A program made the translations under genes and the position numbers. From Erysipelotrichaceae bacterium (GTDB taxonomy: Bacteria; Bacillota_I; Bacilli_A; Erysipelotrichales; Erysipelotrichaceae): a stretch of 36,086 nucleotides of DNA. Each line of letters starts with the position of its first letter. Within the stretch, counting starts at the first letter, position 1. Below the pieces are notes generated by a model. That model did not search any database. It was not told where the DNA came from and worked only from the letters and a program-made list of their open reading frames with translations. The stretch lies in assembly GCA_030536365.1 (NCBI GenBank), contig JAUNQE010000003.1:1-36086 (forward strand), in the 5' to 3' direction. This document shows, one piece after another, positions 25,839 to 31,345 of this stretch.

Positions 25839-25861
25839 AAAACGACGCTAAGCGTCGTTTT
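25839..25861 (-). terminator. Terminator of the acidic CCC-repeat protein gene
   Basis: AAAACGACGC (25839-25848) pairs with GCGTCGTTTT (25852-25861) around a TAA loop. On the minus strand it ends in a U run and overlaps the TAA stop at 25862-25860. Confidence 0.85.
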
Positions 25862-26810
25862 ACTCATCATCTGCGAGAGCTTTGCGGAGGAGCTCCATTC
25901 CCTTTTCGGCAAGGTCCAGGATCGCTTTCTTCGCTTTACGGATATCATCCTGCGTTTCCGGACGGTTGTAGTAATCGTCGAAACCTTTGCGGACATTTGA
26001 GCTGACATCCTTGACTGTCTTAACGACGCTCTGTACATCATCGCTCATGAGGAACAGATCGACCGGGGATGGTTCTTTCTTCTCTTCCGGTTCTGCCTTG
26101 AATTCTTTTACAGGTTCTTCGACCGGTGCTTCTTCTGCAGGAGTTTCTTCTTTGCAGCAGCATTCTTCTTTCTGCTCGGATTCGCCGCAGCAGCATTCAG
26201 ACGGTTTTTCCTCTTCGTTCTGGCATTCGCAGGTCTCTTCAACGACGTCGGTCACGGTGTCCTTGATCTCTTCAACAGCATCCTCTGCTGTTTCGCAAGC
26301 ACATTCCGCAGCTTCCTTGACATCTTCCTTGACTTCCTCGACTTCGTCGCGGACCTCTTCAACAGCTTCCTTGACTTCTTCGACAGTTTCTTCAACAGTC
26401 TCTTCAGGAGCTTCTTCGGTCACTTCTTCAACGGGTTCTTCAGCCGGAGTCTCTGCGGCCGGTTCAGCCGGTGTATCTTCGACAGGTGTTTCCTCGGCCG
26501 GAGCTTCTTCTTCCTTCGCAGCGTACTCCGCACCGATGCTGCGGATACGGTCGATCGTGAAATTGCAGGCTTCTTCGCAGCGGTCGCCGACTCTCTGCAG
26601 GAACTCATCGATCTTCTCATCCTGCGCAAGCTCATTGACGGTCGATTCGATCTTATTGCCGGCATTCTTAACGACTTCGATGGATCTATTGACTAATTCG
26701 TCCAGCTTTTCCTTATCTTCATCGTTCAGCAGCGGACGCTGTTCAGCAGCCGCAAGACGGATCTCAAGTATCTTTTCGTTCATTTTCTGGATTGCTTCTC
26801 TTACGTTCAT
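25860..26810 (-). CDS. Acidic repeat protein with paired Cys triplets, unknown function
   Basis: A 316-aa protein I do not recognise. Residues 1-95 are predicted helical with C78 and C82; residues 100-165 are a low-complexity Glu/Pro/Ala/Val region with VEEV-type repeats; residues 166-220 hold ten Cys: C170, C172, C194, C196 and the triplets 206-208 and 217-219. Residues 250-316 are again helical. No signal peptide or membrane segment. The Cys pattern suggests metal binding. AGGAGGT six bases upstream fixes the start. The two helical ends look like amphipathic phasin/apolipoprotein-type helices, but this is only a visual impression. It diverges from the 287-aa gene. Confidence 0.75.
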   Translation of the reverse strand: MNVREAIQKMNEKILEIRLAAAEQRPLLNDEDKEKLDELVNRSIEVVKNAGNKIESTVNELAQDEKIDEFLQRVGDRCEEACNFTIDRIRSIGAEYAAKEEEAPAEETPVEDTPAEPAAETPAEEPVEEVTEEAPEETVEETVEEVKEAVEEVRDEVEEVKEDVKEAAECACETAEDAVEEIKDTVTDVVEETCECQNEEEKPSECCCGESEQKEECCCKEETPAEEAPVEEPVKEFKAEPEEKKEPSPVDLFLMSDDVQSVVKTVKDVSSNVRKGFDDYYNRPETQDDIRKAKKAILDLAEKGMELLRKALADDE

Positions 26811-26923: not shown

Positions 26924-27787
26924 ATGGGAGTTTACGAGTTACTGTCCTCGAAAGAGGATGCACGCAAAGGTTCACCTTTGTGTGAGTTCAACGGTTTCCT
27001 GGAAGATTATCTGGAAACAATCGCCGACGAGGACGAAAATAAAGAAGTCCTCACAGAAGTCTTTGGCATCGATAAGGATGTCAAAATCATCGTCAACCTC
27101 CGAATGGGTATCTCCAGAGAGTCCATTTCTAATCAGATCATCCGTTATAAAGACATTTTTAAATTGGAAGACAAGGCCGTTGTAATTCCTTATGTTCTTT
27201 ATGCAAAAAATGATAAGGAAGAAAAGGCTTTGATCCTTGTAGGCGGTGACTATATCTATGCGAAAGGCATGTATTATTCACTTACAGAACCGGGCAGCGA
27301 ATTCCAGAATTCCAAGAATGATATCGTTGCTATGGAGCTCACAGACAAGGACCGCGTTAAGGAGGTCTATTCGCAGCTATTCACCAAAAGGGCAGGACAG
27401 ATCCAGCGTGATCTGGACCGCCGTCATTTCAACAACTACGATGAGAGCTTTGCACACGCATTAGAGTTATCCGATGGCATCCGCAGTGAGCTGGAAGAAA
27501 AGCTCGGAAACACGGAGGAGAAGGAGGAACTGATCCGTTCCTGCATCAGCCGCTGGTTCCTGATCAAGAAGTTCACATATGTTCAGTACATGGTCGATAA
27601 GACGATCCTCAACACAAAGTTCGCCGGAAACGTCAAGGCGCAGCGTAATCAGGCTAAGCAGAACGCTGACAACATCCGCTTCGTTTCGATCTCCGACATG
27701 TGGAGAGGAAAACTGGAAAAACCGGTCCCCGAAGAAATCCAGCCGGCCATCGTTGAAGCAGAAAGCGAAGTTGTCGAAGAGGCTTAA
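26924..27787 (+). CDS. Conserved-looking cytoplasmic protein, unknown function
   Basis: A 287-aa protein I do not recognise. It has no signal peptide or membrane helix. Residues 1-115 mix alpha and beta segments (VKIIVNLRMGISRESI, AVVIPYVLYAK, ALILVGGDYIYAKGMYY); residues 145-265 are charged and helical, and the tail is acidic (EAESEVVEEA). A good AGGAGG site sets the start. Its own terminator separates it from the XpaC-like operon, and it shares a 113-base divergent promoter region with the acidic CCC protein, which suggests joint regulation. Confidence 0.72.
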   Translation: MGVYELLSSKEDARKGSPLCEFNGFLEDYLETIADEDENKEVLTEVFGIDKDVKIIVNLRMGISRESISNQIIRYKDIFKLEDKAVVIPYVLYAKNDKEEKALILVGGDYIYAKGMYYSLTEPGSEFQNSKNDIVAMELTDKDRVKEVYSQLFTKRAGQIQRDLDRRHFNNYDESFAHALELSDGIRSELEEKLGNTEEKEELIRSCISRWFLIKKFTYVQYMVDKTILNTKFAGNVKAQRNQAKQNADNIRFVSISDMWRGKLEKPVPEEIQPAIVEAESEVVEEA

Positions 27788-27830: not shown

Positions 27831-27857
27831 AAGGAAGTGCGTTATACTTCCTTTTTT
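27831..27857 (+). terminator. Terminator abutting the XpaC-like promoter
   Basis: AAGGAAGT (27831-27838) pairs with ACTTCCTT (27846-27853), followed by a run of T. The next promoter hexamer begins five bases later. Confidence 0.85.
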
Positions 27858-27859
27858 CG

Positions 27860-27874
27860 TGTATAATTAGTTAC
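27860..27874 (+). promoter_or_regulatory. XpaC-like operon promoter, predicted leaderless
   Basis: TATAAT (27862-27867) preceded by TG; ATG 27875 is eight bases past the last base, with no Shine-Dalgarno. The -35 position would fall inside the terminator loop, so the promoter probably works from its -10. Confidence 0.65.
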
Positions 27875-28801
27875 ATGAGAAGAAGAAGTTCAGGGTTTGG
27901 GTTTTGGTTGTTCTTTATTATTCTGTTAAGCAGCGGATTTGAATTATTCTACGGTCTGTTTGAACTTGCGATCGTCGGTATCTTCGGATACACGATCTAC
28001 CAGATCATCAAGAATATCATTCAAAGCGGCCAGCGCAGAAACAACATAAGAACCACAACAACCAGCACCAAAACAACCAACATGTCCAACAAGGAACGTA
28101 ACCTTATTGATGAGCGTCTGCGTGAGTATTTTAAAGACCACTACCGTCTGCCGGTCGTGGACAACATCGCTCTCACCACGCAGAACGGTTCTTTTACTAC
28201 GGTCGAAAACCTGTTCATTTCCTACGGTGAGGAGAATATCCTCTCGCTCGAGGAGTTCCAGAAATACGATCCGGTCCTTTACAATTCCGTCGTGAATCTG
28301 CTTCTGGCCTTCGCCAAGCAGAAGGAAGATGTCATGGGCGCCGAAGTCAAGACGAATGAGGTCAAGACCGGCAAGAAGCTTTCCGATGCCCAGAAGTATA
28401 TCGATCAGATCAATCAGCTGAATACAGACATCCCGAACGAGGAGATCTCCAACAGCCTGTTCCAGACCTGCGCTTTGCTGAAGCAGATCGACCTGTCTGA
28501 CAAGGAAAACAAGGAAGCGAAGCTGTCCAAGCTGTATGATTACTATCTGCCGATCCTGACCGGTATCCTTGAGAATTACCGCAATCTGCAGAAGACCGGA
28601 ACGGATTCCAAGGAATTCAAAGATTCCGAGACACAGCTGATCAAAACGATCATCCTGATCAACGAAGCTCTGAAGACGATCAATGAATCGCTTCACGAAG
28701 AAGACTATATGAACCTTTCCGCGGATATCACGACCCTTCAGTCGCTGCTGAAGAAGGACGGTCTTGTGGAAAGCAATCCTTTCAAGGAGGATGCAGAATG
28801 A
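27875..28801 (+). CDS. XpaC-like membrane protein
   Basis: A 308-aa protein. After a basic start, one or two hydrophobic segments at about residues 8-50 anchor it. Residues about 70-130 form a small soluble domain, and residues about 165-300 are helical and resemble the XpaC family (5-bromo-4-chloroindolyl phosphate hydrolysis protein): DYYLPILTGILENYRNL and the ending DITTLQSLLKKDGL are typical. XpaC usually pairs with TelA in toxic-anion or envelope stress operons; here the partners are an unknown protein and a tandem AAA+ ATPase, coupled by ATGA overlaps. Confidence 0.75.
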   Translation: MRRRSSGFGFWLFFIILLSSGFELFYGLFELAIVGIFGYTIYQIIKNIIQSGQRRNNIRTTTTSTKTTNMSNKERNLIDERLREYFKDHYRLPVVDNIALTTQNGSFTTVENLFISYGEENILSLEEFQKYDPVLYNSVVNLLLAFAKQKEDVMGAEVKTNEVKTGKKLSDAQKYIDQINQLNTDIPNEEISNSLFQTCALLKQIDLSDKENKEAKLSKLYDYYLPILTGILENYRNLQKTGTDSKEFKDSETQLIKTIILINEALKTINESLHEEDYMNLSADITTLQSLLKKDGLVESNPFKEDAE

Positions 28802-29322
28802 GTCAGAGAAACAAGCCAAACGACTTCCTCGACGAAGTCTTTTCGGAACTCGACAAAAACCTTACCAGCAACGAAAGCCAGGAAGAACTCTTAAAGAGAG
28901 TCCTTTCTTACAATTCCGGCAATTCCATTAATTACAGAACGAATTACAATTCCCGGGTAGTCAAAAGACCGTCTCTGCCGACCATCAACCAGATCGGTGA
29001 ATTCAGCGGACGCTATGACTGCTTCCAGAAACTGCTGATGAATGTGGACTACGGTCCGAATAACTCCAGTGAGTATGTGGAAGGTCATGCAGAGGCGCTC
29101 AACAAGTACATGGCGCAGGCGCAGGCTGCTTCCAAGGATCTTTCAGTCGTGGAAGCGCGTGTCAACGAAGAGATCACGAAGTATAACCACATCAACCGTG
29201 AAAGGATCTTTGTCAAAGGGTATTATGACGGCCTGATCTACGTATACAGAGCATTAAAGAAATCCAAGGAACTGATCGTTACCAAGATCCAGAACGAGTT
29301 ACGCAAGGGGTTGAATCTATGA
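28798..29322 (+). CDS. Unknown helical protein of the XpaC/AAA operon
   Basis: A 174-aa cytoplasmic protein I do not recognise. The first 55 residues are polar and rich in Asn and Ser; residues 60-174 are predicted helical with a basic end (SKELIVTKIQNELRKGL). AAGGAGG (28784-28790) seven bases before the ATG supports the start. It overlaps both neighbours by ATGA, so stoichiometric production with the XpaC-like protein and the ATPase is likely, perhaps as an adaptor. That role is inference from position only. Confidence 0.78.
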   Translation: MSQRNKPNDFLDEVFSELDKNLTSNESQEELLKRVLSYNSGNSINYRTNYNSRVVKRPSLPTINQIGEFSGRYDCFQKLLMNVDYGPNNSSEYVEGHAEALNKYMAQAQAASKDLSVVEARVNEEITKYNHINRERIFVKGYYDGLIYVYRALKKSKELIVTKIQNELRKGLNL

Positions 29323-31319
29323 AAAAAGTCGATAAAGATGAACTGATGAACGAAGTGCTGGGCAAGAAGCGCCCGTATTCTTCCGTTTATACCGATTCGA
29401 TGGATATGCTGAAGAGCACTGAGGATGAGCTGAACCGCATCATCGCCGAGAACGAAAAGAAGCTTCAGGAGATGACTGAACGCAGCAGCTACAGTGAAGA
29501 TAAGATCAATTCACTGAAAGCGGAGATCGAGAAGGATTTCAACGTCAAGATCGATCTGCCGGAGACAGTTGTTGTCGGCAAAGATTCCAAGGAAGTCTTC
29601 GAAGCGATCGAAAAGGAAATGAACGAGATCTGCATCGGCCAGGAAAAAGCAGTCGATGATATCACCGTTGCTTTCCGCCGTCCGTTCGTGACCGGCTCCG
29701 ATCCGAAGAAGATCCGCAACTCCATCCTGCTGATGGGCTCCAACGGTTCCGGCAGACACCTGCTCGTCGAAACGATGGCAGACCTGCTCAAGAAGCACGG
29801 TCTCACCGTATCTTCCGAAGTCATCGGGATCGATATGTCCCGTTACCAGTCGTCCTCCCAGGAAGCGCTCTTCCTGCAGGACCTCTATGCCGCTCTTCAG
29901 GGCAAGAACCCGGTCATCATCTTTGAGAACTTCACACAGGCCAGCCCGGTCTACAACCGTATGCTGGCGGACCTTGTCATCAACGGACAGTGCATCCTCA
30001 ACAAGCGTTATGTCTTCGCGAATAACCAGCTGCAGGAAGCAACACAGAAACTGACAAAAGAAGCGATCGACCATCTCGACGGCAACAATAAGACTCTGGT
30101 CTTCATCACCGAAGGAAAAGCGTCTTCCGTCATGGATGTCTTCGGCAAGAGCTTCGTCGAAACGATCGTCGACCAGATCAAGACAGTACCGTACGATGAG
30201 GGTTCGCTGAAGATCCTCGTCGACAAGATGCTCGATGACCTTTCCCTCAAGTGCAAGACCCAACTTGAGATCGAGGTGGATGTTGCCCAGAGCTTCAAGG
30301 ATTATCTCCTTACCTGCTATGAACCGAACGACGGGATCGATTCGATCTCGCCGATCATCAATAAAGTCTATGACAACCTTGTCGAACTCGCGCTGCGTCA
30401 GGATGACCTTAACAGCCTGGTGCTGATCCACGAGGGAGATGACGTTGTCGCCAAAGAAGCGGAACGCAGTTTCCCGCTGAGCATCAAAAATGATTCCGAA
30501 GCCGAGAGAGCTGAGATCCAGAAGGAACTCGACGCGATCGTCGGCCTGGATAAAGTCAAGGATTATCTCCTGAGCCTGGAAAAACAGGTCAAGGTCAACC
30601 AGCTGCGCCGTCAGAAGGGACTGAAGACCTACGATGTTTCCAAACATATGATCTTTACCGGCAACCCCGGTACCGGTAAAACAACGATCGCCCGTATCAT
30701 CTCCCGTCTGATGAAGGCGAGCGGCATCCTCAGACAGGGCCAGCTCGTTGAAGTTACCCGCGCGAACCTGGTCGGCAAATATGTCGGTCATACCGCGCCG
30801 CTGACGATGGACGTCATCGAGAGCGCGCTGGGCGGTGTCCTGTTCATCGATGAAGCGTACTCGCTTTACCGCGGCAGAGACGATTCCTTCGGACTTGAAG
30901 CGATCGATACATTGGTCAAGGGCATGGAAGATCACCGTGATGACCTGATCGTCATCCTCGCCGGATACGATAAGGAAATGCAGGAATTCCTGACTGCCAA
31001 CACCGGTCTTAAATCCCGTTTCGCGAACATCATCCACTTCGAGGATTACACCGGCGAAGAGCTGATGCTGATCGCCTGCTCGATCGCGAAGGGCAAGGAT
31101 TACAAGATCGCCGAAGAAGCCAAGCAGCCGCTGCAGAACTACTTCACACTGATGCAGGCAAGAAAAGATGTTACCTCCGGCAACGGCCGTATGGCCAGAA
31201 ATCTGGTCGAGGATGCGATCCTCCGCCAGTCCGCCCGTCTGCTGAACAATCCGGAAGATGAAATCGATGTACTGAAACTGGAAGACTTCGATCTTTCCAA
31301 TATGACAGAAATGAAATAA
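29319..31319 (+). CDS. Tandem AAA+ protein: degenerate Clp-like domain plus active CbbX/SpoVK-like domain
   Basis: A 666-aa protein. Residues 20-90 are a coiled coil. Residues about 95-330 resemble a Clp/Hsp100 D2 domain (IGQEKAVDDITVAFRRP, IDMSRYQ) but Walker A reads GSNGSGRH (R146 for Lys, H147 for Thr) and Walker B reads VIIFEN (E203, N204), so nucleotide hydrolysis is unlikely. Residues about 400-660 are a CbbX/SpoVK-type AAA+ domain with GNPGTGKT (K454, T455) and VLFIDEAYSLY (D511, E512), plus the Arg-finger region GLKSRFANIIHF. The operon suggests remodelling of an envelope-bound complex with the XpaC-like protein. Confidence 0.87.
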   Translation: MKKVDKDELMNEVLGKKRPYSSVYTDSMDMLKSTEDELNRIIAENEKKLQEMTERSSYSEDKINSLKAEIEKDFNVKIDLPETVVVGKDSKEVFEAIEKEMNEICIGQEKAVDDITVAFRRPFVTGSDPKKIRNSILLMGSNGSGRHLLVETMADLLKKHGLTVSSEVIGIDMSRYQSSSQEALFLQDLYAALQGKNPVIIFENFTQASPVYNRMLADLVINGQCILNKRYVFANNQLQEATQKLTKEAIDHLDGNNKTLVFITEGKASSVMDVFGKSFVETIVDQIKTVPYDEGSLKILVDKMLDDLSLKCKTQLEIEVDVAQSFKDYLLTCYEPNDGIDSISPIINKVYDNLVELALRQDDLNSLVLIHEGDDVVAKEAERSFPLSIKNDSEAERAEIQKELDAIVGLDKVKDYLLSLEKQVKVNQLRRQKGLKTYDVSKHMIFTGNPGTGKTTIARIISRLMKASGILRQGQLVEVTRANLVGKYVGHTAPLTMDVIESALGGVLFIDEAYSLYRGRDDSFGLEAIDTLVKGMEDHRDDLIVILAGYDKEMQEFLTANTGLKSRFANIIHFEDYTGEELMLIACSIAKGKDYKIAEEAKQPLQNYFTLMQARKDVTSGNGRMARNLVEDAILRQSARLLNNPEDEIDVLKLEDFDLSNMTEMK

Positions 31320-31345
31320 AAGAGCCGTGTGCTCTTTTATTTTTG
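31318..31345 (+). terminator. Terminator of the XpaC/AAA operon
   Basis: AAAAGAGC (31318-31325) pairs with GCTCTTTT (31331-31338), followed by ATTTTT. The ATPase stop codon overlaps the 5' arm. Confidence 0.88.

Follow-up and report, generated by a model that had tools for sequence, protein, structure and literature searches.

A three-gene operon of Erysipelotrichaceae joining an XpaC-family protein to a two-domain AAA+ protein: a candidate remodelling branch of the XpaC/TelA envelope-stress system

Introduction

A three-gene operon of an Erysipelotrichaceae bacterium encodes a divergent XpaC-family protein (A), a small helical protein (B), and a two-domain AAA+ protein (C), and it probably adds to the XpaC/TelA envelope-stress system a dedicated AAA+ remodelling branch associated with the membrane, a reading to which we assign a probability of about 60%. 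In Gram-positive bacteria, XpaC and TelA are tied to tolerance of bacteriocins and to stress on the cell envelope, by a mechanism described as unknown (PMC12791056). In B. subtilis the pair is part of the core regulon of sigma-W (PMC3498285), and in L. lactis the envelope-stress response linked to CesSR induces it (PMC3139573); mutation of telA renders Listeria sensitive to nisin, according to work cited in PMC12791056. The motor of C belongs with the SpoVK/CbbX/EccA proteins, whose known members are dedicated chaperones with narrow targets, two of them in envelope biology; SpoVK, for example, activates MurG (PMC10659427).

Layout and Transcription Signals of the Operon

The window analyzed here is the whole 36,086-nt stretch of contig JAUNQE010000003.1, and its genome is labelled G000; other genomes and loci carry G and L numbers. 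The features of the operon are as follows.

27831-27858, plus strand: terminator hairpin with T-run upstream of A (-12.8 kcal/mol, z -4.2), which closes the gene at 26924-27787 and sets the module apart
27862-27867, plus strand: TATAAT -10 element, 7 nt 5' of the ATG of A; probable leaderless start
27875-28801, plus strand: gene A, 308 aa, XpaC family (PF10112-like)
28798-29322, plus strand: gene B, 174 aa, all-helical protein
29319-31319, plus strand: gene C, 666 aa, pseudo-AAA/AAA+ fusion
29571-30473, plus strand: pseudo-ATPase domain of C, aa about 85-385, Clp NBD2 type
29736-29759, plus strand: Walker A of the pseudo-ATPase domain, GSNGSGRH
29928-29930, plus strand: Asn204 in place of the catalytic Glu in Walker B of the pseudo-ATPase domain (..IIFEN); the arginine finger is also replaced
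30513-31298, plus strand: motor domain of C, aa about 399-660, CbbX/SpoVK/EccA type
31313-31343, plus strand: terminator hairpin after C (-13.3 kcal/mol, z -4.8)

The original prediction of a defined module with ATGA-coupled genes holds, as the reading frames overlap by ATGA at 28798 (A/B) and 29319 (B/C) and the A-B-C order is kept in relatives. The leaderless promoter that it placed before A is also borne out. No Shine-Dalgarno sequence precedes A in the window, and a TATAAT separated by 7-8 nt from the start codon, again with no Shine-Dalgarno sequence, recurs in six relatives (G001, G002, G003, G005, G047, and G032), which gives good comparative support for a leaderless start of A. No good -35 hexamer was found, and a consensus scan that required both hexamers did not list the promoter of A; in the more distant loci L041, L045, and L047, the TATAAT lies further upstream and a Shine-Dalgarno sequence is present. 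The terminator expected behind the operon is conserved as a hairpin 3' of C in two sister species (G001 and G003). The dN/dS ratios of A, B, and both halves of C range from 0.02 to 0.34 and, being below 1, indicate purifying selection on all of them.

The gene at 26924-27787 (plus strand) upstream of A forms its own transcription unit and encodes a 287-aa protein with no Pfam match above the cut-off. It recurs upstream of A in G001, G002, G003, G047, G037, and G035, with a look-alike in L083, and its product is a possible further partner. Further upstream, 25860-26810 (minus strand) encodes a 316-aa protein that contains extended acidic segments rich in Glu and Pro as well as Cys-rich ones; its relatives lie upstream of A in several genomes.

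Proteins A and B

Protein A has a hydrophobic N-terminus by hydropathy (about aa 4-50), which is probably a two-helix hairpin, followed by a C-terminal XpaC domain (about aa 151-301). Its score against PF10112 is sub-threshold (25.1 bits; Pfam cut-off 29.8), while its orthologue in L048 exceeds the cut-off (43.3 bits) and profile-profile comparison of A with short XpaC proteins gives a probability of 99.4% (E 3.9e-21). Judged by these comparisons, A is a divergent XpaC-family protein, in agreement with the earlier call of an XpaC-like protein with a hydrophobic N-terminus. It is the only convincing XpaC homologue of the window's genome, and A is likewise the sole XpaC-type protein found in G001-G003 and in about a dozen other genomes. 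In G433 (L225:3227-5523), B comes after two A-type genes in tandem, and a full-length C was not found in that genome.

Protein B is confined to Erysipelotrichales among the genomes searched. Its model is all-helical (pLDDT 79), with N-terminal helices, a low-confidence linker, and a helical C-terminal domain. No Pfam or PDB match was obtained for B, and its best structural matches (Foldseek E 0.23; VIA Z 6.0) are within the noise for helical proteins; assignment to a known fold was therefore rejected, which does not imply a new one.

Protein C Combines a Degenerate Clp-Type Domain With an Intact Motor

Profile comparison and predicted structure confirm the earlier description of C, in which a Clp-like domain with lost Walker residues is joined to a CbbX/SpoVK-like motor that is intact. 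The motor motifs are all intact, comprising Walker A (GNPGTGKT), Walker B (LFIDEA), a YVGHTAP loop, GY, an N-x5-R finger, and sensor 2 (GNGRxxRN), and GNPGTGKT, LFIDEA, AGY, N561/R567, and R624/R627 are invariant in 22 sequences. The features of the SpoVK/CbbX/EccA clade that were tested, as taken from PMC10659427 (Walker A and B, GY at sensor 1, Asn before the arginine finger, and the sensor-2 Arg), were all found in the motor; position 565, which is Arg in CbbX, is Lys in the C of the window and varies among relatives. The motor model aligns structurally with CbbX, the red-type Rubisco activase (3syl_B; Z 25.7, 270 residues, rmsd 4.8, 42% identity). The N-terminal half of C differs from those of the clade, being a Clp-type pseudo-ATPase and not the TPR of EccA or the short domain of SpoVK, and an unsystematic inspection around C revealed no context of Rubisco, sporulation, or T7SS.

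Scores of C against the NCBIfam models of the clade are below the cut-off in each case: SpoVK, the closest (307 bits; cut-off 422.95), EccA (255.3 bits; cut-off 466.65), and CbbX (242.5 bits; cut-off 459.25). Assignment of C as a T7SS EccA was rejected, since it is far under the cut-off and has no TPR domain, and assignment as a sporulation SpoVK was rejected because of the sub-threshold score and the different N-terminal half.

The N-terminal domain resembles ClpC in profile comparison (E about 1e-20), and its model (aa 78-382) shares the fold of the second nucleotide-binding domain of ClpA, ClpB, and ClpC (ClpA 6uqe_A; Z 24.6, 269 residues, rmsd 2.7). In contrast to those proteins, C has no Clp N-domain or NBD1, and it carries a conserved L-x-K-R-Y segment before sensor 1. 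The residues that mark an active NBD2 (Walker A Lys-Thr, Walker B Glu, and the arginine finger) were not found together in it: none of the 24 readable sequences retains the catalytic Walker-B Glu, only L046 among them keeps the arginine finger, and the Walker-A Thr/Ser is mostly His. As the loss is common to Erysipelotrichales and Clostridia it is old, and the dN/dS of the pseudo-ATPase domain (0.08-0.34) indicates that the domain is maintained. Most of each domain of C is modelled with confidence (mean pLDDT 82.9), but the placement of the two domains relative to each other is not confident (pTM 0.50).

Giant CbbX proteins of 1128-1213 aa occur in Sporanaerobium, Lysinibacillus, Paraclostridium, and Terrisporobacter (L100, L101, L102, and L108). 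They match the CbbX type strongly and the N-domain of C weakly; although they match both C profiles, no A or B lies nearby, and they were rejected as instances of the same system.

Conservation of the Gene Neighborhood and Placement in the XpaC/TelA System

About 15 loci from a wide range of genera share the A-B-C arrangement, and its order persists among relatives whose proteins are as little as about 22-40% identical, which argues that it is not due to chance; the lack of co-occurrence that would have counted against the module was not seen in Erysipelotrichales. In ten loci (L037, L038, L039, L041, L045, L046, L047, L049, L050, and L051), telA lies 3' of C, either immediately or with one to a few genes in between, and the three of these tested by Pfam match PF05816 with E-values of 1e-121 to 1e-126. 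The gene order is A-B-C-XpaC-TelA-LemA-TPM in L041 and L045 and C-XpaC-TelA in L050 and L051, and an Erysipelotrichaceae metagenome-assembled genome (L088) has the full seven-gene form. The cultured relative Lactimicrobium massiliense (L084) encodes A and C, and its telA is about 9 kb distant. LemA-like and TPM genes, known companions of XpaC-TelA, follow C-XpaC-TelA in L041, L045, L051, and L088, but are not in the neighborhood of the window.

The presence of TelA beside C in ten relatives, and of a short XpaC, LemA-like, and TPM proteins in several, places the set in the XpaC/TelA system. The module is thus not outside known systems but is an extra ATPase branch of XpaC-TelA, and the original statement that no described system with this set is known does not hold at the scale of the genome. 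A literature search of partial coverage found no description of the A-B-C gene set. That prediction had named a match to TelA/Ter stress operons as evidence against it; the TelA part of this applies, whereas Pfam detected no Ter family member (TerD/TerC) in A, B, C, or the four flanking genes examined. Its remark that TelA is absent is true of this contig only, as the genome has a single TelA gene, standing alone on another contig (G000:C11:3354-4331, E 1.8e-118).

The known XpaC-TelA pairs (xpaC-yaaN and yceGH of B. subtilis, lmo1966-1967 of Listeria, and llmg_1115-telA1 of L. lactis) resemble the present set in that A is of the XpaC family and TelA is encoded in every C-containing genome searched. 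The present set differs in the addition of an AAA+ protein with two domains and of a small helical protein, in the greater length of A compared with short XpaC proteins, and in the unlinked position of telA in the window's genome, where XpaC and TelA do not share an operon in the window. In Lachnospiraceae lacking C, by contrast, XpaC adjoins TelA in every sampled locus. Given that A is the only convincing XpaC homologue of the window's genome and TelA stands alone there, the most economical view is that XpaC was incorporated into the operon of a dedicated AAA+ remodeller, TelA being encoded apart. In a tree of C, A-B-C loci without TelA, the window included, cluster apart from most TelA-adjacent loci, with modest support (a single change in 86% of bootstrap trees); the position of TelA thus probably changed near that branch, in a direction that is not settled because the root is arbitrary.

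The C gene of Lachnospiraceae and their relatives is solitary: B is missing and XpaC-TelA lies elsewhere, which means that neither B nor linkage is a universal requirement of C. In two Lachnospiraceae (L092 and L098), the orphan C adjoins genes that resemble gapA and pgk/tpiA of glycolysis, as named from the beginnings of their sequences. An AAA gene beside XpaC-TelA in L195 was considered as a second case and rejected, since its sequence reads as FtsH.

The neighborhood also bears on the idea that the client of C is an enzyme of peptidoglycan or lipid-precursor synthesis, as in SpoVK-MurG, such that the operon would regulate cell-wall synthesis with XpaC/TelA as a parallel membrane partner. 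SpoVK, the closest model of C (307 bits), activates MurG (PMC10659427), and a murD-like gene lies about 2 kb 3' in the window (33445), as it also does in G001 and G003. This linkage, however, is limited to the genus and missing even in G002, no constant cell-wall gene adjoins C in other genera, and C is below the SpoVK cut-off (307 versus 423 bits) with a different N-terminal half. We therefore consider a cell-wall client improbable.

Co-Occurrence of A, B, C, and TelA

Among 98 Erysipelotrichales genomes, TelA is present in 24 of the 24 that encode C and in 8 of the 74 that do not (p 2e-16), A and C occur together in 22 (p 2e-17), and A and B occur together in 22, B never being found without A (p 6e-20), by Fisher tests whose p-values ignore kinship among genomes and overstate their independence. 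The association of C with TelA is seen within each family separately (p 9e-11 and 0.001) and in genomes not used for discovery, where TelA accompanies C in 6/6 cases against 1/11 without C (p 0.0006). In Clostridia, TelA is present in all 17 C-containing genomes, against a base rate of 82/150 (55%) in one Lachnospiraceae sample; within that sample the excess (5/5 with C versus 77/145 without) is only suggestive and not significant (p 0.06). Across the genomes searched, C was never found without TelA (24/24, 6/6, and 17/17), and the association persists where A-B, C, and TelA are encoded at separate places (G013, G055, G026, and G087).

It might be argued that A, B, and C are mere neighbors, A being an XpaC that happens to lie next to an unrelated ATPase, since the linkage is broken in G013, G055, G026, G087, and G091 and absent in Clostridia. 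Yet A and B co-occur with C even where unlinked, and the order endures over large divergence, which makes a chance neighborhood very improbable. A and B were found without detected C in G048, G018, and G433; G048 and G018 have either an A-B contig that breaks off close by or a fragmented assembly.

Co-occurrence with TelA could also reflect a shared envelope-stress response if A-B-C served in general quality control of membrane proteins or aggregates, with C threading misfolded clients through both rings. The derivation of the N-domain from NBD2 of a ClpB/ClpC-type disaggregase, the membrane-anchor-like hydrophobic N-terminus of A, and the ability of C to stand alone in Clostridia are consistent with such a role. 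Nevertheless, the catalytic residues of the Clp-like ring are lost in all readable relatives, C lacks the Clp N-domain and NBD1, and CbbX/SpoVK/EccA members have narrow, dedicated targets (PMC10659427), while a pure stress co-response leaves the inclusion of A, the sole XpaC in many genomes, in the operon unexplained. General quality control is for these reasons judged unlikely. Since the clade comprises narrow, dedicated chaperones and XpaC-TelA belongs to envelope stress, a membrane-anchored remodeller of XpaC/TelA is the best-supported reading.

Proposed Mechanism and Candidate Client

The membrane-anchored, ATP-driven remodelling complex with an inactive scaffold domain that was originally put forward is still the best hypothesis, with client and scaffold roles that we infer. 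Protein A would tether the complex to the membrane on its inner side, and C would form a hexamer in which the N-terminal domains make up a pseudo-ATPase ring that serves as scaffold by binding A and/or B. By analogy with CbbX and the Rubisco tail, the C-terminal ring would hydrolyze ATP and pull on a dedicated client, and B probably links A to C as an adaptor or regulator. TelA or XpaC may be that client, the most likely candidate being TelA, with its acidic N-terminus and T-L-T-L/F-x-P or I-x-L-T-L-x-P motif, or an XpaC/TelA assembly; the cycle would then load TelA, extract it, or reset it under envelope stress. That A-B-C constitutes a new kind of two-ring AAA+ machine dedicated to remodelling TelA/XpaC, driven by a CbbX-type ring and scaffolded at the membrane by a catalytically dead Clp-type ring, is a tentative proposal that we hold at somewhat less than even odds. 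If it is true, XpaC-TelA in these bacteria is an ATP-driven remodelling system and not a passive pair. The pseudo-Clp domain is an addition to the known partners of the CbbX/SpoVK clade. A motor that is never found without TelA in the genomes searched and that lies beside the sole XpaC in many of them would offer a concrete handle on the mechanism of XpaC-TelA.

The N-terminus of TelA is acidic and disordered-looking, with a short motif, PTLT(L/F)xP or IxLTLxP, in most genomes. The pattern [IV]xL[TS]L occurs in the TelA of 23/38 genomes with C and 0/23 without, a split that mostly separates Erysipelotrichales from Lachnospiraceae and is thereby confounded, and most TelA proteins of genomes without C have a similar PTLTLxP. 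The motif was accordingly rejected as a C-specific tag, because many genomes without C have it. The conserved N-terminal motif of L061:3321-4529 (minus strand) and other TelA loci is a candidate binding motif of this non-specific kind. A TelA-like motif, DIKLTLEP, and similar repeats are also present in the C-terminal tail of the A protein of G035 (L048:8851-9981, minus strand), the gene of which has no neighboring B.
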